From: an uncultured bacterium
Lineage (GTDB): Bacteria; Bacillota; Clostridia; Oscillospirales; Oscillospiraceae
DNA length: 64,000 bases
Reading direction: 5' to 3'
NCBI GenBank assembly: GCA_949840775.1
Contig: CATKXO010000008.1
Span: forward strand, 27,592-91,591
A model generated the notes under the pieces. It worked only from the letters and a program-made list of their open reading frames with translations. It ran no database searches and had not been told where the DNA came from. Each line of letters starts with the position of its first letter. Position 1 is the first letter of the stretch. This document shows, in pieces, positions 3,195-12,578 of this stretch. Both the position numbers and the translations under genes were made by a program.

Positions 3195-4700
3195 ATGAGC
3201 GAAACCATTGTATCCATGCGGGGGATCTGCAAGAGCTTTCCCGGCGTCAAGGCCCTGGACCATGTGGACTTTGACCTGCGCTCCGGGGAGGTCATGGCCC
3301 TGCTGGGGGAGAACGGCGCAGGCAAAAGCACGCTGATGAAGGTGCTCAGCGGCGTGTACCAGCGGGACGAGGGCACCCTGGAAATTTTCGGGAAGCAGTA
3401 CGGCGATCTGAACCCCAAGCTGGCCCAGGAGGTGGGCGTGGCCATCATTCACCAGGAGCTGAACATGTGCAAGCACCTGTCTGTGGCGGAAAATATGTTT
3501 TTAGGCAGGGAAAAGCGCAGGGGCATCAGGCTTGACAACGCCAGTATGGAAGCGGAGGCAAAGAGCATCCTGAACGAGCTGAAAATTGATTTGGACCCCA
3601 AACAGGTGGTGGGAGAGCTGCCTGTGTCCAAGCAGCAGATGGTGGAAATTGCCAAGGCCCTGTCCACCAATGCCAGGGTGCTGATTATGGACGAACCCAC
3701 CTCCGCCCTCACCGCCCGGGAGATTGACGACCTGTTCCGCATCATCCAGGAGCTGAAGGCCAAGGGCTGCGGCATCGTGTATATCTCCCACCGGCTGGAG
3801 GAGCTGCAGCACATCGTGGACCGGGTGACCATCATGCGGGATGGCCAGTACATCACCAGTATGGACTTCAAGGATGTCACCCTGGACGAGATCATCGCCT
3901 ACATGGTGGGCCGGGAGATCAAGGAGAAGTTCCCCCGGGTGGCCTGCGAGAAGGGCAAAAAGGTCTTCGAGGTAAGGGGGCTCAACGCCGGGCGCATGGT
4001 GCGGGACATCGACTTCTCCCTGTATGAGGGGGAGATCGTGGGCTTCGCCGGGCTGATGGGCGCCGGGCGCACCGAGACCACCCGGGCCATTTTCGGCGTG
4101 GACCCCAAGGAGGGCGGGCAGATCATCCTGGACGGCAGAGAGGTGGCCATCAGGAACCCCAAGGACGCCATCCAGGCGGGCATTGTTTTGGCCCCGGAGG
4201 ACCGGAAGAAGGACGGACTTTGTACCAAGCTGTCCATCCGCCACAACATCGCCCTGCCCAACCTGGACTTTCTGTGCAATCGGTTCGGCATGATCCGGTG
4301 GGGCAAAGAGGCCGAAACCTGCGATAAAACGGTGCAGAACCTGAAAATCAAGACCCCCAATGTGGAGATCAACGCGGCCAACCTCTCCGGAGGCAACCAG
4401 CAGAAGGTGGTGGTGGGCAAGTGGCTGGCCCGAAACTCCCGGGTCGTTATTTTCGACGAGCCCACCCGGGGCATCGACGTGGCGGCCAAGGTGGAGATTT
4501 ACCACCTGATGAACGACCTGAAAAAGCAGGGGATCGCCGTCATGTTCGTCTCCTCGGAGATGCCGGAGGTCATGGGCATTGCCGACCGCATCATCGTCAT
4601 GTGCGACGGACGGATTACCGGCGAGCTCATGGCGGAGGACGCCACCCAGGAGAAGATTCTCTCCCTGGCTACCCAGTTTGAGAAGAAAATTGCTGTTTAA
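3195..4700 (+). CDS. Sugar ABC transporter ATPase, two-domain RbsA/MglA type
   Basis: 501 residues with two complete ABC domains. Domain 1 has Walker A GENGAGKST (about residues 38-46) and Walker B VLIMDEPTSA. Domain 2 has the usual RbsA-family altered P-loop GLMGAGRTE, the signature LSGGNQQK and Walker B VIFDEPTRG. It energises import of a carbohydrate with the permease at 4715 and the binding protein at 5793. The ATG at 3195 is preceded by GGTGA seven bases away and by AGGAGG further up. Gap to the permease is 14 bases. It is the functional counterpart of the decayed ATPase at 10385. Confidence 0.93.
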   Translation: MSETIVSMRGICKSFPGVKALDHVDFDLRSGEVMALLGENGAGKSTLMKVLSGVYQRDEGTLEIFGKQYGDLNPKLAQEVGVAIIHQELNMCKHLSVAENMFLGREKRRGIRLDNASMEAEAKSILNELKIDLDPKQVVGELPVSKQQMVEIAKALSTNARVLIMDEPTSALTAREIDDLFRIIQELKAKGCGIVYISHRLEELQHIVDRVTIMRDGQYITSMDFKDVTLDEIIAYMVGREIKEKFPRVACEKGKKVFEVRGLNAGRMVRDIDFSLYEGEIVGFAGLMGAGRTETTRAIFGVDPKEGGQIILDGREVAIRNPKDAIQAGIVLAPEDRKKDGLCTKLSIRHNIALPNLDFLCNRFGMIRWGKEAETCDKTVQNLKIKTPNVEINAANLSGGNQQKVVVGKWLARNSRVVIFDEPTRGIDVAAKVEIYHLMNDLKKQGIAVMFVSSEMPEVMGIADRIIVMCDGRITGELMAEDATQEKILSLATQFEKKIAV

Positions 4701-4714
4701 GGAGGGCGGAAACA

Positions 4715-5749
4715 ATGAACACGAAACCGAATCCCATAAAGCGCATCCTAAATACCCGGGGCATGGGCGGGGCGCTGACGGCCTTTGCCGGGCTGATTGT
4801 CATCTACATCGCCTTCGGCATCATCAACCCCACTGTGTTCTCCGGGCAGAACATCATGAACCTGCTGCGGTCCATGTCCAAGTACCTGCTCATCGGCATC
4901 GGGCAGAGCTATATTCTGATTACCGGCAACATCGACCTGTCCATCGGCTCGGTGGCGGGCATGAGCGCCATGATTTCCGCCACCCTGATGACCATGGGGG
5001 TCCACCCCATTGCCGCAATCCTGATTACGCTGGCCTGCTGCCTGGTCATCGGCGTGCTCAACGGCCTGCTGGTGGGCAAATGGCAGCTGCCCCCCTTCAT
5101 CGCCACCTTGGGCACTATGTTTGTGGCCCGGGGCGTGGCCTACATCGTCAACGGCAACCGCAACACCGACGCCATTGCCTCCGGCATCGGCAAGGAGGCG
5201 GCCGACACCTTCGGCAATTTCTTCTACTACGGCTCCACACTGGGCATCTACAACACCTTCTGGATTGCCATCGCCCTGTTTGTGGTATTTTTCTTCCTGC
5301 TGTCCGGGACCAGGACGGGCCGCCATATCTACGCCATCGGCTCCAACGTGGACGCGGCCAAGCTGTCCGGCGTCTCTGTGCTGGCCACCACCACCAAAGC
5401 CTATTTGGTCAGCGCCTTCTGCTCCTGCGTGGTGGGCCTGATCCTGTGCGGGCAGGCCGGCATGGGCAATATGGAGGCCGGCAACATGTATGAGATGTAC
5501 GGCGTGGCCGCTGGCGTCATCGGCGGCGTGTCTCCCCTGGGCGGCACCGGTATCCTGCTGGGCACCCTGGCCGGCGCGGCGGTGTGGCAGACCCTGGAGA
5601 ACGGCCTGAACATGATCGGTGCCCAGGTGGGCATCCAGCGGCTGGTCATCGGCATCATTGTGGTGGTGGCTGTGTTCCTGGACGTGGTGGTCCGCAACGG
5701 TGCCCACAAGAAAAAGCCCGCCAAGACCGGCGCGGCCAAGACGAATTAG
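4715..5749 (+). CDS. Sugar ABC transporter permease, RbsC/LsrC type
   Basis: 344 residues of mostly hydrophobic sequence with about nine to ten membrane segments, and the family motifs NIMNLLRSMSKYLLIGIG, ITGNIDLSIGS and GNVDAAKLSG-like (SNVDAAKLSGVSV) regions of the BPD_transp_2 family. The C-terminus is basic (AHKKKPAKTGAAK) and cytoplasmic. AAGGAGG lies eight bases before the ATG. Second gene of the importer operon. The RbsC family carries pentoses, hexoses and AI-2, so substrate is not determined by sequence alone. Confidence 0.93.
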   Translation: MNTKPNPIKRILNTRGMGGALTAFAGLIVIYIAFGIINPTVFSGQNIMNLLRSMSKYLLIGIGQSYILITGNIDLSIGSVAGMSAMISATLMTMGVHPIAAILITLACCLVIGVLNGLLVGKWQLPPFIATLGTMFVARGVAYIVNGNRNTDAIASGIGKEAADTFGNFFYYGSTLGIYNTFWIAIALFVVFFFLLSGTRTGRHIYAIGSNVDAAKLSGVSVLATTTKAYLVSAFCSCVVGLILCGQAGMGNMEAGNMYEMYGVAAGVIGGVSPLGGTGILLGTLAGAAVWQTLENGLNMIGAQVGIQRLVIGIIVVVAVFLDVVVRNGAHKKKPAKTGAAKTN

Positions 5750-5792
5750 ACACCGGCAGGTGCTAATTATAAAAAACAAGGAGGATTCGAAA

Positions 5793-7574
5793 ATGAAAAA
5801 ACTCACAGCAGTTCTGTGCGCCGCCTGTCTGATGGTTACAGCTATGACGGGCTGTGCCAAGAAGAACGACCCCGGCCAGAGCGGAAGCTCTGACACCATG
5901 ATCGCCCTGATTACCATGGACTCCATCGATCAGCACTGGATTGCCCTGAACGAGGGCGCCCAGAAGGCGGCCAAGGAGCTGGGTGTCAATGTCCAGTTCA
6001 TGTCCCCCAACACCAAGGACGACGCCCAGCAGATTGAGTGCGTCAACAACGCCGTCAGCGCGGGCGCCAAGGCCATCATCGTGGCCGCCAACGGCCCGGA
6101 CGCCATTTCCTCCGCCCTGAAGGAGGCCAAGGACAAGGGCGTGAAGATCGTCTACGTGGACTCCCCCGCCAACGTGGACGCCGAGGCCACCTTCTCTACC
6201 GACAACAAGGCCGCCGGCAAGACCGCCGGTGAGGAGATGCTCAAGGCGCTGAACGCCAAGGGCGTCAAGAGCGGCAAGGTGGGCATCATCAACGTAAACG
6301 CCGCCACCGACTCCTGTGTGGCCCGGGAAGAGGGCTTCCGCTCCGCCTTTGAGGGCAGCGGCTTCGAGCTGCTGGAGACCCAGTACGGCGAGGGCGACGC
6401 CGCCAAGTCCCAGTCCATCGCGGAGAACTACATCACCCAGGGCGTAGTGGGCATCTTCGGCTGCAACGAGGGCTCCACCACCGGCGCGGGCAACGCCATC
6501 AAGGCCACCGGCAAGGCCGACATCGTTGGCGTGGGCTTCGATAAATCCGACGCCATCCTGGGCCTGATTGACGACGGCTATCTGCTGGCCACCATGGCTC
6601 AGAACCCCGATGTCATGGGCTACGAGGGCGTGAAGGCCGCGGTCAAGGCCATCAACGGCGAGAGCCTGGGCGGCGCGGTCACCGACACCGGCGTGTCCGT
6701 CCTCACCAAGGAGGGCGGCTCCGCCGCCCCCGCCGGCACCACCGCCAGCCAGGAGTGGAAAATCGCCCTGATTACCATGGACTCCATCGACCAGCACTGG
6801 GTCACCCTGAACGAGGGCGCCCAGGCCAAGGCCAAGGAGCTGGGGGTCACCGTCACCTTCATGTCTCCCAACACCAAGGACGACGCCCAGCAGATCGAGT
6901 GCGTCAACAACGCGGTGGCCGGCGGCTACAACGCCATTATGGTGGCTGCCAACGGCCCGGACGCCATCTCCTCCGCCCTGAAAGAGGCCCAGTCCAAGGG
7001 CGTGAAGATCGTCTATGTGGACTCCCCCGCCAACGTGGACGCCGAAGCCACCTTCTCCACCGACAACAAGGCCGCCGGCAAGACCGCTGGCGAGGAGATG
7101 CTCAAGGCGCTGGACGCCAAGGGCGTCAAGAGCGGCAAGGTGGGTATCATCAACGTGAACGCCGCCACCGACTCCTGCGTGGCCCGTGAGGAGGGCTTCC
7201 GCTCCGCCTTTGAGGGCTCTGGCTTCGAGCTGCTGGAGACCCAGTACGGCGAGGGTGACGCCGCCAAGTCCCAGTCCATTGCCGAGAACTACATCACCCA
7301 GGGCGTGGTAGGCATCTTCGGCTGCAACGAGGGTTCCACCACCGGCGCGGGCAACGCCATCAAGGCCACCGGCAAGGCCGATATCATCGGCGTGGGCTTC
7401 GACAAGTCCGATGCCATCCAGGGCCTGATTGGCGACGGCTATCTGCTGGCCACCATGGCCCAGAACCCCGATGTCATGGGCTCCAGCGGCGTAGAGGCCT
7501 GTGTCCAGGCGCTGGAGGGCGCCGCCCTGAACGGTGCGGTCACCGACACCGGCGTGTCTGTGCTCACCAAGTAA
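5793..7574 (+). CDS. Tandem-domain sugar-binding lipoprotein (two Peripl_BP_4 domains)
   Basis: 593 residues. A lipoprotein signal peptide ends at the lipobox TGC (C near residue 22). Two periplasmic-binding-protein (RbsB-like) domains follow, about residues 35-306 and 324-593, joined by a short linker rich in Gly, Ala, Pro and Thr. The domains are nearly identical and match codon for codon with no insertion. Both keep the same likely ligand-contact segments (TMDSIDQHW, AANGPDAIS, DSPANVDAEATF, GFDKSDAI). Ordinary binding proteins of this class have one domain of about 300 residues. The ATG at 5793 has AAGGAGG nearby. It is the extracytoplasmic receptor of the importer and may also feed the downstream sensor genes. 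A double receptor could raise local ligand capture or bridge two partners. Confidence 0.9.
   Translation: MKKLTAVLCAACLMVTAMTGCAKKNDPGQSGSSDTMIALITMDSIDQHWIALNEGAQKAAKELGVNVQFMSPNTKDDAQQIECVNNAVSAGAKAIIVAANGPDAISSALKEAKDKGVKIVYVDSPANVDAEATFSTDNKAAGKTAGEEMLKALNAKGVKSGKVGIINVNAATDSCVAREEGFRSAFEGSGFELLETQYGEGDAAKSQSIAENYITQGVVGIFGCNEGSTTGAGNAIKATGKADIVGVGFDKSDAILGLIDDGYLLATMAQNPDVMGYEGVKAAVKAINGESLGGAVTDTGVSVLTKEGGSAAPAGTTASQEWKIALITMDSIDQHWVTLNEGAQAKAKELGVTVTFMSPNTKDDAQQIECVNNAVAGGYNAIMVAANGPDAISSALKEAQSKGVKIVYVDSPANVDAEATFSTDNKAAGKTAGEEMLKALDAKGVKSGKVGIINVNAATDSCVAREEGFRSAFEGSGFELLETQYGEGDAAKSQSIAENYITQGVVGIFGCNEGSTTGAGNAIKATGKADIIGVGFDKSDAIQGLIGDGYLLATMAQNPDVMGSSGVEACVQALEGAALNGAVTDTGVSVLTK
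5901..7571 (+). repeat. In-frame tandem duplication within the binding-protein gene
   Basis: The segment 5901-6710 is repeated at 6762-7571. The offset is 861 bases throughout, with no indel over 810 bases, and long stretches are identical at the DNA level. The two copies differ mainly at silent positions and in a patch around 6640-6680 / 7500-7540. The high DNA identity means either a recent duplication or ongoing gene conversion. Confidence 0.9.
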
Positions 7575-7591
7575 TTTCATAGCAAAAAAAG

Positions 7592-7625
7592 CAACAGGAA
7601 CGCCGGTTTTCCGGCGTTCCTGTTG
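7592..7625 (+). terminator. Strong hairpin after the binding-protein gene
   Basis: A 15-base perfect stem (7592-7606 with 7611-7625, loop TTTT) begins 17 bases after the stop codon and is preceded by seven A's. The downstream U-tract is poor, so it may be a partial terminator or an mRNA-protecting structure that raises binding-protein expression relative to the sensor genes downstream. Confidence 0.6.
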
Positions 7626-7727
7626 AAATTATCAAGACATCGTGATAAAGTAGTGTAAGCCCATCAGCAAAATCCGGTCAGATACCCAGATAATTCCGAG
7701 GCAGTTCGGTTGGGAGTGAGACAGCTT

Positions 7728-9305
7728 ATGTGGAAGGTTATTATCGCGGATGATGAAAAGTTGATCTGCCGGCTGATCGAGACGCTGATCGACTGGGAAA
7801 CGCTGGACATGGAGATCGTGGGCAAGGCGGAGAACGGGCTGGAGGCCCTCCGGATGGTGGAGGAGCTCCATCCCCACCTGCTGATTACCGACATCCGTAT
7901 GCCGGGCTGTGACGGCCTGGAGCTGATCCGTCAGGCCCGGGAGCTCAGCCCGGACATTGAGATTGTCATTATCAGCGGCTACGCACACTTTGAATATGCC
8001 AAAACCGCCATCGCCTACGGCGTGGGCAGCTATATCCTAAAGCCCGTCAACCAGGCGGAGCTGAACAAGACTCTGCAAAAAATTGTGCTCCGGTTGGAGG
8101 AGCGGGGCAAACGGGAGCGGACGGAGGAAGACCGGGAGAGCGGCCAGTCCGCGCCCCAGCGGCGCAGGGAGGAGCTGCTCCGGGACCTGTTGGAAGGAAA
8201 AAGGGAGTTTACCGAGGAAGAGCTGGCCGAAAGTTATCAGTTTCACATCTGCGGATGTCAGCTCCAGACCTTTTTCCTCAAGCTGGACTTGGACGGGGAG
8301 GAGTTGAGCAATCCGGCCCGGACCATCATCCGTCAGAAGGCGGAGGAGATGTTCCAGGCCACTGTACTGCCTTCCTGTACCGAAGGCGCGCTGTTTCTCC
8401 GGAACTTCGCGGGCTACGGCCTGCTCAGCTACCCGCCCGGGGAGCAGGACCGGGTGCGCCACAGCCTGCGGGAGCTGCTCAAGCAGCTGGAGGCCAACAA
8501 AAGCCTGTTTGGAAAAGTGGAGTTCACCATCGGCCTGGGCCGGCCCATTCAAGAGGTCCGGGAGCTGGCCGGCTCCATGAATACCGCCCGGCTGGCGGCG
8601 GAGGAGCGGCTGATCGAGGGCCGGGGCCGGATGCTGGAGGATGTGCCGCCCGATTCCAGCCTGCCCAAGCAGGCAATCCTGAACCGCTACACCAAGCTGG
8701 TGGACCACGGGATCGACATCATCGACGGGGACACCCTGCGCCTGGCCCGGGAGAGCCTGCGGGCCGGGGTGCTGGCTGTGTCCAGAGTACGCGGGCGGGA
8801 GATTTTTGAGCTGGTGCTGGATGCGGGAAAAATTTTTTCTCTTCGGGCGGGCAGCAGCGATGAGGCAGCCCAGGCATTTCAGCAGCGCTGCGGCCAGTGC
8901 GGGCGGACAGAGCTGCTGTTCCGGGAGCTGGAACAGCTCCACACCCAAGTGCTCCGGGAGCTGAAGGAGCGGCAGGAGAACGAAACCACCCGCCCCATCC
9001 GCATGGCAAAGCAGTTTGTTCAGGAAAACTACGGGCGGAACATCACCTTGGAGGATGTGTGCGGGGCCGTCGGCTTCAGCTCCACCTACTTCAGCGCCCT
9101 GTTCAAAAAAGAGACCGGGGAGGGCTTTTCCAAGTACCTGACCCAGGTGCGGATCGACCGGGCCAAGGAGCTGCTGCGGGAGACCGGACTGTCCGTGGCG
9201 GAGGTGTGCGAGGCGGTGGGCTACAGCGACCGGAAGCACTTCACCCAGACCTTTCACAAGATGACCGGCGTAAATCCGGCGGAGTTCCGCCGGCTCTACG
9301 GCTGA
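7728..9305 (+). CDS. Response regulator, YesN type with AraC output domain
   Basis: 525 residues. The receiver domain (1-120) has the acidic pair DD at 8-9, the phosphorylated D55 in ITDIRMP, and the conserved lysine in ILKPV. A middle region of about 270 residues with helical repeats follows, then a C-terminal AraC-type double helix-turn-helix (about 425-525; QENYGRNITLEDVC, GFSSTYFSALFKKETG). The start is ATG 7728 with GGGAG eight bases upstream; an in-frame TTG at 7710 is less likely. Next to the YesM-type kinase, 12 bases apart. It probably activates the importer or isomerase genes in response to extracellular sugar. Confidence 0.93.
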   Translation: MWKVIIADDEKLICRLIETLIDWETLDMEIVGKAENGLEALRMVEELHPHLLITDIRMPGCDGLELIRQARELSPDIEIVIISGYAHFEYAKTAIAYGVGSYILKPVNQAELNKTLQKIVLRLEERGKRERTEEDRESGQSAPQRRREELLRDLLEGKREFTEEELAESYQFHICGCQLQTFFLKLDLDGEELSNPARTIIRQKAEEMFQATVLPSCTEGALFLRNFAGYGLLSYPPGEQDRVRHSLRELLKQLEANKSLFGKVEFTIGLGRPIQEVRELAGSMNTARLAAEERLIEGRGRMLEDVPPDSSLPKQAILNRYTKLVDHGIDIIDGDTLRLARESLRAGVLAVSRVRGREIFELVLDAGKIFSLRAGSSDEAAQAFQQRCGQCGRTELLFRELEQLHTQVLRELKERQENETTRPIRMAKQFVQENYGRNITLEDVCGAVGFSSTYFSALFKKETGEGFSKYLTQVRIDRAKELLRETGLSVAEVCEAVGYSDRKHFTQTFHKMTGVNPAEFRRLYG

Positions 9306-9317
9306 CAGGAGAGGGCA

Positions 9318-10376
9318 ATGAAAAACGACAGGTTGCGATATTTGTCCCACCGGCTCCTGGCCGCGGGCCTGACGGCCGTCCTGCTCCATCTCTGCCTGCT
9401 GCTCTTCCTCTGCGCGGCGGCGAAGGACCTGGGCGGGCGCTGGTGGGAGCTGGCCGCCATGGGGGCGGCGGGACTGCTCCTTTTGGTGTGTTGGACCACA
9501 GTGTGGATCATCCGGCCGTTTCTCCGGCTGGAAAAGGAGACCCGGCTGTTTTTGGAGGGGCACGCTCCGAATGGCCTGCTGCGGGAGGAACATGTCTTCT
9601 TTACCCCCGCCGGCCGTCAGACCTGGGAGTGCCTGCAGGGGCTGCTGGACTCCTCAGAGCTGATGAAGATGAACAAGCGGCAGGCCCAGTACCTGGCCCT
9701 GCAAAACCAGATCAACCCCCATTTCCTCTACAACACCCTGGAGAGCATCCGAAGCGAGGCCCTGATTGCGGGACTGACCGGTCTGGCGGAGATGACGGAG
9801 GCCTTAGCCAGCTTCTTCCGCTATACCATCAGCAAAGTGGAGAATCTGGTGTCGGTGGAGGAGGAGCTGCAAAACTGCGAGACCTATTTCAAGATTCAAC
9901 AGTACCGCTTTGCGGAGCGCCTCCAGCTCACCGTCGAATGTGACAGCGCAGAGCGGGAGGAAATTTACAACTGCCGCCTGCCCAAGCTGAGTATGCAGCC
10001 CATTTTGGAAAACAGCATCATCCATGGCACCGAGTGTAAAATCGGCACCGGGCACCTGAAAATCCATCTGGAGCGGACGGGCAAGCTGCTGCTCATCCGA
10101 ATCTCCGACGACGGGGTGGGGATGGATGAGCAGACCCTGGCCAGAATGAATGGACAGCTGCAAAAAAAAGTCCGGGCCGCCGCGTCTCAGGACGGCCAGA
10201 CCCAGGGCGGCATTGCCCTGCGCAACGTGAACAACCGGATCCAGCTGCTGTTTGGAGAGGAATACGGCCTGCGGGTGTTTTCCATGCCCGGGGTGGGAAC
10301 CGATGTGGAGATTCTGCTGCCGGCTATCACCAGCGACAGGGATGTCCCCAATAAGGAGGCGCTGCGCTCCCTGTAG
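9318..10376 (+). CDS. YesM-type histidine kinase lacking an extracellular sensor domain
   Basis: 352 residues. Two membrane segments (about 12-35 and 43-66) are separated by only some eight residues, so there is essentially no extracellular domain; typical YesM kinases have about 250 residues there and are near 580 long. The His_kinase domain has the phospho-accepting H135 in QINPHFLYNTLE, and the HATPase part shows the N box ILENSIIHG, G1 box DDGVGMD and GIALRNVNNR. RBS AGGAGAG precedes ATG 9318. Being blind on its own, it presumably receives its signal through a partner membrane protein or through the adjacent ABC-like protein. Confidence 0.92.
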   Translation: MKNDRLRYLSHRLLAAGLTAVLLHLCLLLFLCAAAKDLGGRWWELAAMGAAGLLLLVCWTTVWIIRPFLRLEKETRLFLEGHAPNGLLREEHVFFTPAGRQTWECLQGLLDSSELMKMNKRQAQYLALQNQINPHFLYNTLESIRSEALIAGLTGLAEMTEALASFFRYTISKVENLVSVEEELQNCETYFKIQQYRFAERLQLTVECDSAEREEIYNCRLPKLSMQPILENSIIHGTECKIGTGHLKIHLERTGKLLLIRISDDGVGMDEQTLARMNGQLQKKVRAAASQDGQTQGGIALRNVNNRIQLLFGEEYGLRVFSMPGVGTDVEILLPAITSDRDVPNKEALRSL

Positions 10377-10384
10377 GAGGGTAT

Positions 10385-11914
10385 ATGCGAAACGAGATAC
10401 TGCGAATGGATCAGGTGACCTATGAGACCCAGGGCGTCACCCAGCTGGACAATTTCAGCCTGTCGGTGTGGGAGGGGGAAATTTTGGGGCTGGTCCCCGT
10501 GAACAACTGGGGGGTAGAGGCCCTGCTCTCTCTGCTGACCCAAAACCTTCCCCTGCGGTATGGATATGTTCATTACAACGAAAGGCTGGTAAATGACTGG
10601 CACAGCCACCGCAGAGGGGGAAACCGGGTCAGCGTGATTCGGAATGAGAGCTGTCTGGCCAAGGACCTGACGGTGGCTGACAACATCTTTGTCCTGCGTC
10701 CGGGGTTCAAAAAATGGCACATCCGCCCCCGTATCCTCCGGGAGCAGCTGACCCCCTTTATCCAGGAGGTGGGTGTCCCCATCCGGGCGGACGCCTATAT
10801 CGACAGCCTGACCACCTTTCAGCGGTTTGTGGTGGAGCTGCTAAAGGCGGTAGTGGCAGGCAGCCGGCTGATCGTGCTGGAAAACGCGGATGCCTTCATC
10901 AGTGAGAGCGAGCTGGCCAAGCTCCAGGAGATTTTACTGCACTACGCCGGTAAGGGCATCTCCTTTCTCTACCTCTCCGCCCATTTTGAGGAAACCCTGC
11001 GCTTCTGTCACCGGACGGCCCTGATGTCCAATGGACGCATCTTAAAATGCTTTGACCTGAAAAGCGGCAGCGCGGATATCCTGTCCCTGCCCTGTGTGGG
11101 GGACTACGACCGCTGGATCCGGGCCCATCTGGAGGAGCCGGTCCGGGAGCAGGCAGACAGGCCCATGCTGGAGCTGCGCGCCCTGTGCTGCGGGAACCTC
11201 CAGGATGTAGACCTGCGGGTAAATGCCGGGGAGTGTATCGTGGTGCAGGATACGGACGGCTGCGCTCTGAGCGACTTTCTCGCCGTTTTAGCGCGCGGGC
11301 AGCCGGAAAGCGGGCAGCTTTTGGTGGGGGGAAGGCCCCTGCGCTCCGGTCTGGACCGGAGCATTGCCATTGTCCAGGAGCGGCCTACAGAAACCATGCT
11401 GTTTTACAGCATGAGCTATATGGACAATCTGTGCTTCAATATGGATCACCGTTTCCCGAAAATCTGGCTGTCAAAGGGGATTCGCAGGAGCATCCGGGAG
11501 GAGTATGCCCCCCTTCTGGGGGCGGAAGTCTTTGACAGACGAATCAATGAACTGACCAACCGGCAGAAATATGATCTGGTGTATACCAGGCTGCTGCTTC
11601 AGCGGCCCAAGGTGGTGTTCTGCATCCATCCCTTCAAGAAGGCGGAGGTATCTATCCGAAGCCATCTGTGGGAGCTGATAGAGCGGCTTTTGGAGCGGGA
11701 TATTGCGGTGGTAATCCTTGCGGTAAACCTGGCCGACTCGCTGGCCCTTGCGGACCGGCTGGTCCGCCTGCGGAAGGGGGCGGTCCACGAGGTCTACCGG
11801 CGTGAGGACTTCACACGGCTGCCCGCCAATACTCCGTGGCTGTATCTCTACCGGGAAAAATATTCAAATATGGAAAGAAAGGTCGATATGTATGAAACGT
11901 TCCGAAATCAATAA
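10385..11914 (+). CDS. Degenerate two-domain ABC ATPase (RbsA-like pseudo-enzyme)
   Basis: 509 residues, same size and two-domain layout as the RbsA-type ATPase at 3195, but every catalytic motif is changed. Domain 1: the P-loop region reads PVNNWGVEALL (about 38-48) with no GKST; signature LTTFQRF; Walker B LIVLENADA with the metal aspartate lost; the switch histidine region reads YLSAHF. Domain 2: P-loop region QDTDGCALSDF, signature LTNRQKYD, Walker B position VVFCIHPF. It should not hydrolyse ATP. The frame is intact and codon usage normal, so it is a maintained protein, not a pseudogene. It follows the kinase by 8 bases and overlaps the isomerase by 23 bases. Likely a regulatory subunit linking a permease to the kinase. 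Confidence 0.85.
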   Translation: MRNEILRMDQVTYETQGVTQLDNFSLSVWEGEILGLVPVNNWGVEALLSLLTQNLPLRYGYVHYNERLVNDWHSHRRGGNRVSVIRNESCLAKDLTVADNIFVLRPGFKKWHIRPRILREQLTPFIQEVGVPIRADAYIDSLTTFQRFVVELLKAVVAGSRLIVLENADAFISESELAKLQEILLHYAGKGISFLYLSAHFEETLRFCHRTALMSNGRILKCFDLKSGSADILSLPCVGDYDRWIRAHLEEPVREQADRPMLELRALCCGNLQDVDLRVNAGECIVVQDTDGCALSDFLAVLARGQPESGQLLVGGRPLRSGLDRSIAIVQERPTETMLFYSMSYMDNLCFNMDHRFPKIWLSKGIRRSIREEYAPLLGAEVFDRRINELTNRQKYDLVYTRLLLQRPKVVFCIHPFKKAEVSIRSHLWELIERLLERDIAVVILAVNLADSLALADRLVRLRKGAVHEVYRREDFTRLPANTPWLYLYREKYSNMERKVDMYETFRNQ

Positions 11915-12578
11915 GGCGCTCAAGGAGCTGGAGGCCATGTGTGTCCAATACCGCTTTGCCCTGCCGCCCTTCTGCCATTTCACTCCGGAGCAGTGGAAGG
12001 AACTGGGACACGAGTACGACGAGGTCCGGGACTGTATGCTGGGCTGGGACATCACCGACTACGGCAAGGGGGACTTTGACCGCTTCGGCTTTTCCCTGAT
12101 CACCATCCGCAACGGCAACCGGGCCATGGCGGACAAGTACCCCAAGGTGTACGCCGAGAAGCTGCTCTATCTGAAGGAGGGCCAGTATGCCCCCAACCAC
12201 TTCCACTGGTATAAGACCGAGGACATTATCAACCGGGGCGGCGGGAACGTGCTCATCCGGGTGTACAACTCCCTGCCCGACGAGGAGATTGACTACAGCT
12301 CCGACGTGACCGTCCATACCGATGGGCGCACCTACACCGTCCCCGCAGGAACCCAGGTGCGGCTCACGCCCGGGGAGAGCATCCACATCCAGCAGAGGCT
12401 GTACCACGACTTCTCCGTGGAGGAGGGGTCCGGCCCTGTCCTGCTGGGCGAGGTGAGCCAGTGCAACGACGACAACACGGATAACCGCTTCAACCCGCCT
12501 GTGGGCCGCTTCCCCGCCATTGAGGAGGACGAGCCCCCCTATCGTTTACTGTGCAACGAGTACCCGCCGGCCCAATGA
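11892..12578 (+). CDS. D-lyxose isomerase (YdaE-like cupin)
   Basis: 228 residues, typical of the D-lyxose ketol-isomerase family (Pfam PF07385 type), metal-dependent cupins that interconvert D-lyxose and D-xylulose and also D-mannose and D-fructose. The cupin metal motif is visible as NHFHWYKTEDIINRGGGN, with another histidine in ESIHIQQRLYHDF. The chosen start is ATG 11892, which overlaps the end of the pseudo-ATPase gene in another frame. Last gene of the rightward set. It gives the strongest hint to the imported sugar: D-lyxose, D-mannose or a related aldose. Confidence 0.85.
   Translation: MKRSEINKALKELEAMCVQYRFALPPFCHFTPEQWKELGHEYDEVRDCMLGWDITDYGKGDFDRFGFSLITIRNGNRAMADKYPKVYAEKLLYLKEGQYAPNHFHWYKTEDIINRGGGNVLIRVYNSLPDEEIDYSSDVTVHTDGRTYTVPAGTQVRLTPGESIHIQQRLYHDFSVEEGSGPVLLGEVSQCNDDNTDNRFNPPVGRFPAIEEDEPPYRLLCNEYPPAQ

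Follow-up and report, generated by a model that had tools for sequence, protein, structure and literature searches.

We examined a window of 64,000 nucleotides from the genome of an uncultured bacterium of the Oscillospiraceae (GenBank assembly GCA_949840775.1; 2.6 Mb in 64 contigs, the window lying on contig C8), in which the genes of a sugar importer, a two-component system and a degenerate RbsA-like ATP-binding cassette (ABC) ATPase stand in a row. All positions given below are those of this window. From 3195 to 12578 the + strand encodes, in order, the canonical RbsA-type ATPase of the importer (3195-4700; domain and family models, motif alignment), an RbsC-type permease of family PF02653 BPD_transp_2 (4715-5749; domain and family models), an RbsB-type binding lipoprotein (5793-7574; domain models), a YesN-type response regulator with a receiver and an AraC-type helix-turn-helix domain (7728-9305; domain models), a short YesM/LytS-type histidine kinase of 352 amino acids that lacks an extracellular domain (9318-10376; domain models, AlphaFold2), an RbsA-type protein of 509 amino acids with tandem nucleotide-binding domains (NBDs) that is predicted to be catalytically dead (10385-11914; models, motif alignment, AlphaFold2), and a D-lyxose/D-mannose isomerase (11892-12578; family models). 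The pseudo-ATPase, called the dead ATPase below, is our candidate for a signal adaptor, and the isomerase is a local catabolic gene. The gene limits, the tight spacing and the overlap with the isomerase gene that an initial annotation had reported are correct, and family models likewise identify the real RbsA-type ATPase, the permease and the binding lipoprotein that it had placed upstream.

The window kinase carries PF06580 (His_kinase) together with HATPase_c, and its conserved histidine and ATP-binding residues are present; it is an intact LytS-type kinase. What it lacks is an outer domain. The initial annotation had described two membrane helices with about eight residues outside, and this description holds up: the hydrophilic stretch is about eight residues long when judged by eye, and AlphaFold2 (mean predicted local distance difference test, pLDDT, of 75.4) places helices at residues 11-38 and 41-79, which correspond to the membrane hairpin and the start of the linker (9348-9554, + strand). 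The same architecture is found in all 30 module kinases that were read at the N-terminus, each with two membrane helices, almost nothing between them and no extracellular sensor domain; the kinase of locus L031, a fused frame, was left out of both this reading and the alignment. The phospho-accepting histidine falls at residue 131-135 in these kinases, or at 162 in L115 and 176 in L037, where the frames are extended at the start. This short form also stands apart as a subfamily. Specifically, the 27 genomes that carry a dead ATPase contain 28 short kinases scoring 472-563 bits with frames of 337-394 amino acids, the next kinase drops to 236 bits, and the remaining YesM matches listed in these genomes have frames of 418-703 amino acids.

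The dead ATPase has the tandem ABC_tran fold over its full length of about 500 amino acids that defines an RbsA-type (CUT2) ATPase, and its matches to three models of tandem sugar ABC ATPases (AraG, XylG-type and RbsA) are full-length, with scores of 110-117 bits that lie far below the NCBIfam cut-offs of 689-745 bits; on these three models the window's real RbsA reaches 573-596 bits. AlphaFold2 returns a confident two-domain fold (mean pLDDT 83.7, predicted template modelling score 0.74), for which the top Foldseek matches are the A2 component of the methyl-coenzyme M reductase activation complex, the DppD/OppD importers with tandem NBDs, and ABC-F proteins. No solved structure named as RbsA-type was present among the PDB sequences listed (60 of 92 and 60 of 189) or among the 50 Foldseek matches listed. 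At the P-loop of NBD1, where RbsA has GENGAGKST, only the remnant VPVNNWGVEA is left (10493-10522, + strand), and motif alignment places the NBD1 Walker B remnant LIVLENADA at 10868-10894 (+ strand). None of the 30 unbroken family members, the window included, has a Walker B aspartate in either domain, a switch histidine in NBD1 or an LSGG signature in NBD2, and the canonical composite site (GxxGxGKST, DEP and His in NBD1 with LSGGNQQ in NBD2) is found in 0 of these 30 versus 25 of the 25 neighbouring RbsA proteins examined. The broken dead-ATPase frames of L031 and L032 were left out of these motif counts, and the frame of L038 is cut by a contig end. Sequencing error as the cause of the motif loss is ruled out by the absence of the same residues from 30 unbroken members on many contigs. 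In the NBD1 H-loop (window about 10970-10990) 26 of the 30 members have a histidine one residue past the lost switch histidine, a conserved shift.

The initial annotation had gone further in stating that P-loop lysines, Walker B aspartates, signature motifs and the switch histidine were lost in both domains. Loss of the Walker B aspartates, the signature and the switch histidine is borne out, whereas the NBD2 P-loop lysine and NBD2 switch histidine cannot be counted as losses, since the 25 neighbouring RbsA proteins examined already have G-R-T in the NBD2 Walker A and no switch histidine there. The second Walker A of Bacillus subtilis RbsA is described as likewise degenerate in the part of the source used here (PMC11466899). 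Thus, the wording "in both domains" overstates the derived change, which is the loss of the single working composite site.

The dead ATPase and its neighbours form a module that recurs well beyond the window. A profile search found dead-ATPase members in 4 of 394 order, 13 of 391 class and 7 of 398 phylum genomes, these samples overlapping, and a single-sequence search found the protein in 10 of 149 relatives, its own genome included. Within four families it was present in 4 of 32, 3 of 13, 3 of 3 and 5 of 13 genomes. Scores of family members range from 298 bits, for genome G1192 matched over residues 1-245, to 851 bits; other RbsA-like proteins score at most 240, and the contig-truncated protein of G498 scores 218. 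We annotated 32 loci from at least 10 families of the phylum (ten family labels among the member genomes). The short YesM gene directly adjoins the dead-ATPase gene on the same strand in 31 of the 32, with a gap of at most 23 bases or overlapping frames, so that a neighbourhood search around the ATPase-like family supports the pairing noted in the window; homologues that combine a large kinase sensor domain with the absence of a transporter, which would have spoken against the initial annotation, were not found inside the family. RbsA is encoded in the same stretch in 28 of the 32 loci, and RbsA, RbsC and RbsB together in 25. The seven loci without a full RbsABC set comprise five at contig ends (L035, L107, L108, L114, L121), the decayed L031, and L105, which belongs to genome G801 and is described below. 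Gene order is RbsA-RbsC-RbsB-YesN-YesM-dead ATPase in the clade of the window, L034 having inserts, and YesN-YesM-dead ATPase-RbsA-RbsC-RbsB elsewhere, and G034 has two modules with two kinases and two pseudo-ATPases. Thus, the short YesM, YesN, the dead RbsA paralogue and the RbsABC importer constitute one conserved module, and what was observed in the window is genuine and holds across a set of Firmicutes modules.

The genes around the module are less constant. Lyxose isomerase is present in 6 of the 32 loci, once as a fragment, which rules out a local oddity tied to lyxose, and genes resembling the inositol pathway lie near L108, L110 and L111 as judged by eye from the protein starts. Such variation of catabolic genes between loci while the signalling genes stay is expected if specificity comes from RbsB and RbsC. 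At L031 the module appears to be decaying as a whole, with the YesN and dead-ATPase frames in pieces and RbsA, RbsC and RbsB not found in the stretch.

The link between kinase and dead ATPase is also evident when whole genomes are compared. With a threshold of at least 440 bits for the kinase subfamily, and apparently the same draw of 391 class genomes as in the dead-ATPase search, all 13 dead-ATPase carriers have the short kinase. The kinase is found in 14 of the 391 genomes, namely these 13 and G498, whose dead ATPase runs off the contig, giving a Fisher p of 2e-23 that is uncorrected for shared ancestry. As controls we used the next-best RbsA-like proteins outside the family, picked by profile score and not at random, with L063, L089, L091 and L100 left out as no main open reading frame was read there. 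All 40 readable controls keep a working composite site (L049 and L053 with a D-N change in the second Walker B), and no YesM match was found in their flanks of about 1.5 kb, where three weak AraC-type matches were seen. Genome G801 departs from the usual arrangement. Its dead ATPase, which is unbroken, lies alone on contig C6 (L105:6615-8069), and YesN-YesM-RbsA-RbsC-RbsB lie on C30 (L135:6005-8704); there YesM and RbsA are separated by 144 bases at the place where the dead ATPase would be expected. The retention of an unbroken gene in a new place argues that the product is needed. The two stretches have near-equal G+C (0.432 and 0.429). Note that the closest homologues differ (L116 for the dead ATPase, L110 for the kinase) within one draft genome, so that the arrangement may reflect a binning error or separate histories. 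Overall, the short kinase and the dead ATPase very probably act as a functional unit.

The initial annotation had suggested that the dead ATPase docks on the permease or a paralogue and passes the ligand state to the kinase, an idea that is supported in part, as regards the conserved pair and its usual importer. We propose that within this unit the dead ATPase would be the input subunit of a kinase that is unable to sense by itself. It would keep the RbsA fold and the permease-facing surface, and it would dock on the RbsC dimer in place of RbsA, where it could not power transport. Binding of sugar-loaded RbsB would then be reported through the permease and the dead ATPase to the linker after the second membrane helix of YesM, and YesM would phosphorylate YesN to switch on the importer and catabolic genes. 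The permease with RbsA would thus import, and the permease with the dead ATPase would signal. The kinase, whose non-catalytic parts consist of only a helix hairpin and a linker, would read the receptor complex laterally, in a manner similar to the control of BceS by BceAB. A published model of RbsABC has one RbsA per two RbsC, in the part of the source used here (PMC11466899), so that the dead ATPase could take the place of RbsA on RbsC, and a receptor would result. From the conserved grouping of short kinase, dead ATPase and importer it would appear that the sugar signal now reaches the kinase by way of the dead ATPase, and docking on the permease would be the best mechanism for the pair. Whether the full sequence of docking on RbsC and relay to YesM is correct we regard as evenly balanced.

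The one piece of evidence for the docking step comes from conservation along the dead ATPase. The top-conserved 11-mer of the family, LTVADNIFVLR (10667-10699, + strand), follows the Q-loop and corresponds to LSVAENMFLGR in RbsA, and its NBD2 counterpart SYMDNLCFNMD (11414-11446, + strand) is the eighth best conserved window. Both segments are presumed to contact the permease, as in ABC importers. They stand at conservation percentiles 78 and 76 in the dead ATPase, where either Walker A is at 46 and the NBD2 signature at 50. The corresponding values in RbsA are 68 and 55 for the contact segments, 76 and 70 for the Walker A stretches and 79 for the NBD2 signature.

Several observations weigh against this docking and relay model. 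Ranks two and three among the conserved windows of the dead ATPase fall to the H-loop of NBD1 and the Walker B strand of NBD2, where new residues now stand, and other motif stretches also rank well (SIG1 at percentile 72, H1 at 74, WB2 at 67, H2 at 66), so that the permease face does not stand out. Patristic-distance partial correlations of the dead ATPase over 19 loci are 0.39 with YesM, 0.05 with RbsC, -0.27 with RbsA, 0.55 with RbsB and 0.41 with YesN, values that point to no clear partner. From gene order, however conserved, a contact of the dead ATPase with RbsC cannot be distinguished from one with RbsA or YesM. In addition, decay of the motifs is graded and less complete outside the clade of the window: the NBD1 P-loop GK is retained in 10 of 30 dead ATPases, followed by S or T in 2 of the 30 (L037, L119), and in 9 of 30 the NBD1 Walker B column still has a Glu, so that some members may bind nucleotide.

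Further points on the same side come from kinases outside the short subfamily, among them a second tier in the class search that scores 274-309 bits. L139 and L140 have kinases of intermediate length (444 and 485 amino acids) near half-degenerate or near-canonical RbsA-like proteins. L141:17541-19043 and L143:4968-6464 encode degenerate RbsA-like proteins with permease genes adjacent and kinases of at least 600 amino acids, and these proteins are possibly dead transporters acting as receptors. No RbsA-like protein with two domains is encoded in the stretch around the long second-tier kinases of L144 and L145. Kinases may therefore have shed the sensor domain, and RbsA-like proteins their ATPase motifs, in separate trends that coincide in this module. 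In favour of the model, the second tier also includes three short kinases (L136, L137, L138), each adjoining another, also dead RbsA-like protein (on the opposite strand to the kinase in L136) and each with a canonical RbsA nearby, and a fourth, that of L158, is preceded by YesN and by an RbsA-like protein with the NBD1 motifs kept and the NBD2 signature lost. That RbsC and RbsB are shared by a working and a dead ATPase, whose swap would turn the importer into a sugar receptor, and that degenerate RbsA paralogues were recruited more than once to sensorless kinases, is a tentative picture to which we give somewhat less than even weight. Two more short or disrupted YesM matches were seen at G529:C89 and G649:C1:4276416.

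The dead ATPase could alternatively be a soluble cytosolic sensor of a sugar phosphate, a nucleotide or another ligand, and it would then influence YesM directly, with no need to dock on the permease. The strict pairing with the kinase, the ability of the gene to sit away from the importer genes in G801, the GK kept in part of the family and the near-zero partial correlation with RbsC would all fit such a sensor. Set against these are the presumed permease-contact segments, which are among the best conserved, and the importer genes themselves, which accompany the dead ATPase except at contig ends, in the decayed L031 and in G801. We consider this explanation unlikely. Still less likely is that the dead ATPase serves as a regulatory subunit of the importer, competing with RbsA for RbsC and throttling transport, with its place beside YesM a matter of operon order. 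The usual presence of the importer genes and the retained tandem-NBD fold are consistent with this role, whereas co-occurrence is with this kinase subfamily and not with RbsA in general (0 of the 40 outside RbsA-like proteins have a YesM match in the flanks), and the kinase would be left without other visible input. A further reading, very improbable, is that YesM detects sugar-loaded RbsB on the outer side of the membrane without an intermediary, in the manner of LytS with XylFII, and that the dead ATPase has some unrelated role. Sensing of a binding protein by a kinase is described for CuaD-CuaS and cited for XylFII-LytS in the part of the source used here (PMC10384115), which also gives CuaS about 266 residues between its membrane helices versus the turn of a few residues found here.

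Selection and phylogeny bear on whether the dead ATPase has a function at all. The ratio of nonsynonymous to synonymous substitution rates (dN/dS) is 0.04-0.23 in the 10 of 13 close pairs that have a finite dS, the pair L117-L121 among them being near saturation, and it is above that of RbsA in 7 of 9 comparable pairs, with mixed results relative to YesM. This indicates that the dead ATPase is kept under purifying selection. In a 100-sequence FastTree tree with midpoint root, the dead ATPases are monophyletic among the sequences listed (26 of 26, support 0.974), and the module RbsA proteins group together among canonical RbsA; the long branches make the deep placement of the dead ATPases unsafe. 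Near-identical loci were left out of the tree and of the distance tests. A decaying duplicate or pseudogene without function, to which the missing catalytic residues and the broken frames in 2 of 32 loci (L031, L032) might point, is thus ruled out by purifying selection, by unbroken frames in 30 of 32 loci (that of L038 cut by a contig end) and by monophyly across families, and retention of the gene away from the module in G801 also speaks against it.

The proposed docking of the dead ATPase on the permease invites comparison with known systems. BceB is an FtsX-like permease with a large outer domain, whereas the permease here is of the sugar-importer type PF02653 BPD_transp_2, and the kinase here belongs to the different YesM/LytS type. 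As in the Bce-type modules for antimicrobial peptide sensing (BceAB-BceS), the kinase lacks a sensing domain of its own and is controlled, here by proposal, by an ABC transporter. According to the part of PMC10314905 used here, the BceAB transporter controls the BceS kinase, and signalling needs ATP binding and hydrolysis by a working ATPase; in the present module the coupling subunit is predicted to be catalytically dead and a separate working ATPase is present. By analogy, the module would work like a Bce-type transporter-coupled sensor without being a Bce member. XylFII-LytS (known here as cited in PMC10384115) and CuaD-CuaS resemble the module in combining a sugar-binding lipoprotein, a kinase and a regulator that control a sugar importer, as far as the part of that source used here describes them, and they differ in that the LytS and CuaS kinases have an extracellular part that meets the binding protein, which the window kinase lacks. 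With the RbsA/CUT2 tandem ATPases the dead ATPase shares the two-domain layout and the neighbouring RbsC and RbsB, and one site is already degenerate in RbsA itself, in the part of PMC11466899 used here; the dead ATPase has in addition lost the remaining working site and forms its own clade, scoring well below the family cut-offs. The pair of regulators is otherwise that of YesM/YesN systems, with a PF06580 and HATPase_c kinase and a receiver plus AraC-type regulator, the kinase subfamily being shorter than the other YesM proteins listed for the carrier genomes.

Among the open-licence PubMed Central matches listed, no title or abstract start was found that describes a dead ABC ATPase as the partner of a histidine kinase. 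If the proposed role is true, a family of dead ABC ATPases that has no name and occurs in many Firmicutes families would gain a clear function, the signal source of the short YesM kinases would be explained, and an ABC ATPase fold would be seen to serve as a signal adaptor rather than as an engine. The strict pairing of kinase and dead ATPase makes this idea directly testable by single gene deletion. The low-scoring matches to sugar ABC ATPase models are also a warning for annotation, as the window protein could easily be miscalled a transporter subunit.

Two further features of the locus concern the binding protein and the substrate. The lipoprotein at 5793-7574 consists of two near-identical RbsB domains fused in tandem, whose halves are about 80% identical in a half-versus-half comparison, and long RbsB forms are also present in L026, L027, L029, L030, L038 and L112, giving 7 of 32 loci with the window. 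Two binding domains per polypeptide may matter for stoichiometry. Just upstream of the importer, the - strand (132-1765, 1995-2927) carries genes for Dak1 and Dak2 proteins, which are of the dihydroxyacetone-kinase type, and for a regulator that has a sugar-binding domain; given these neighbours, the cluster may act on some small sugar that is not lyxose.

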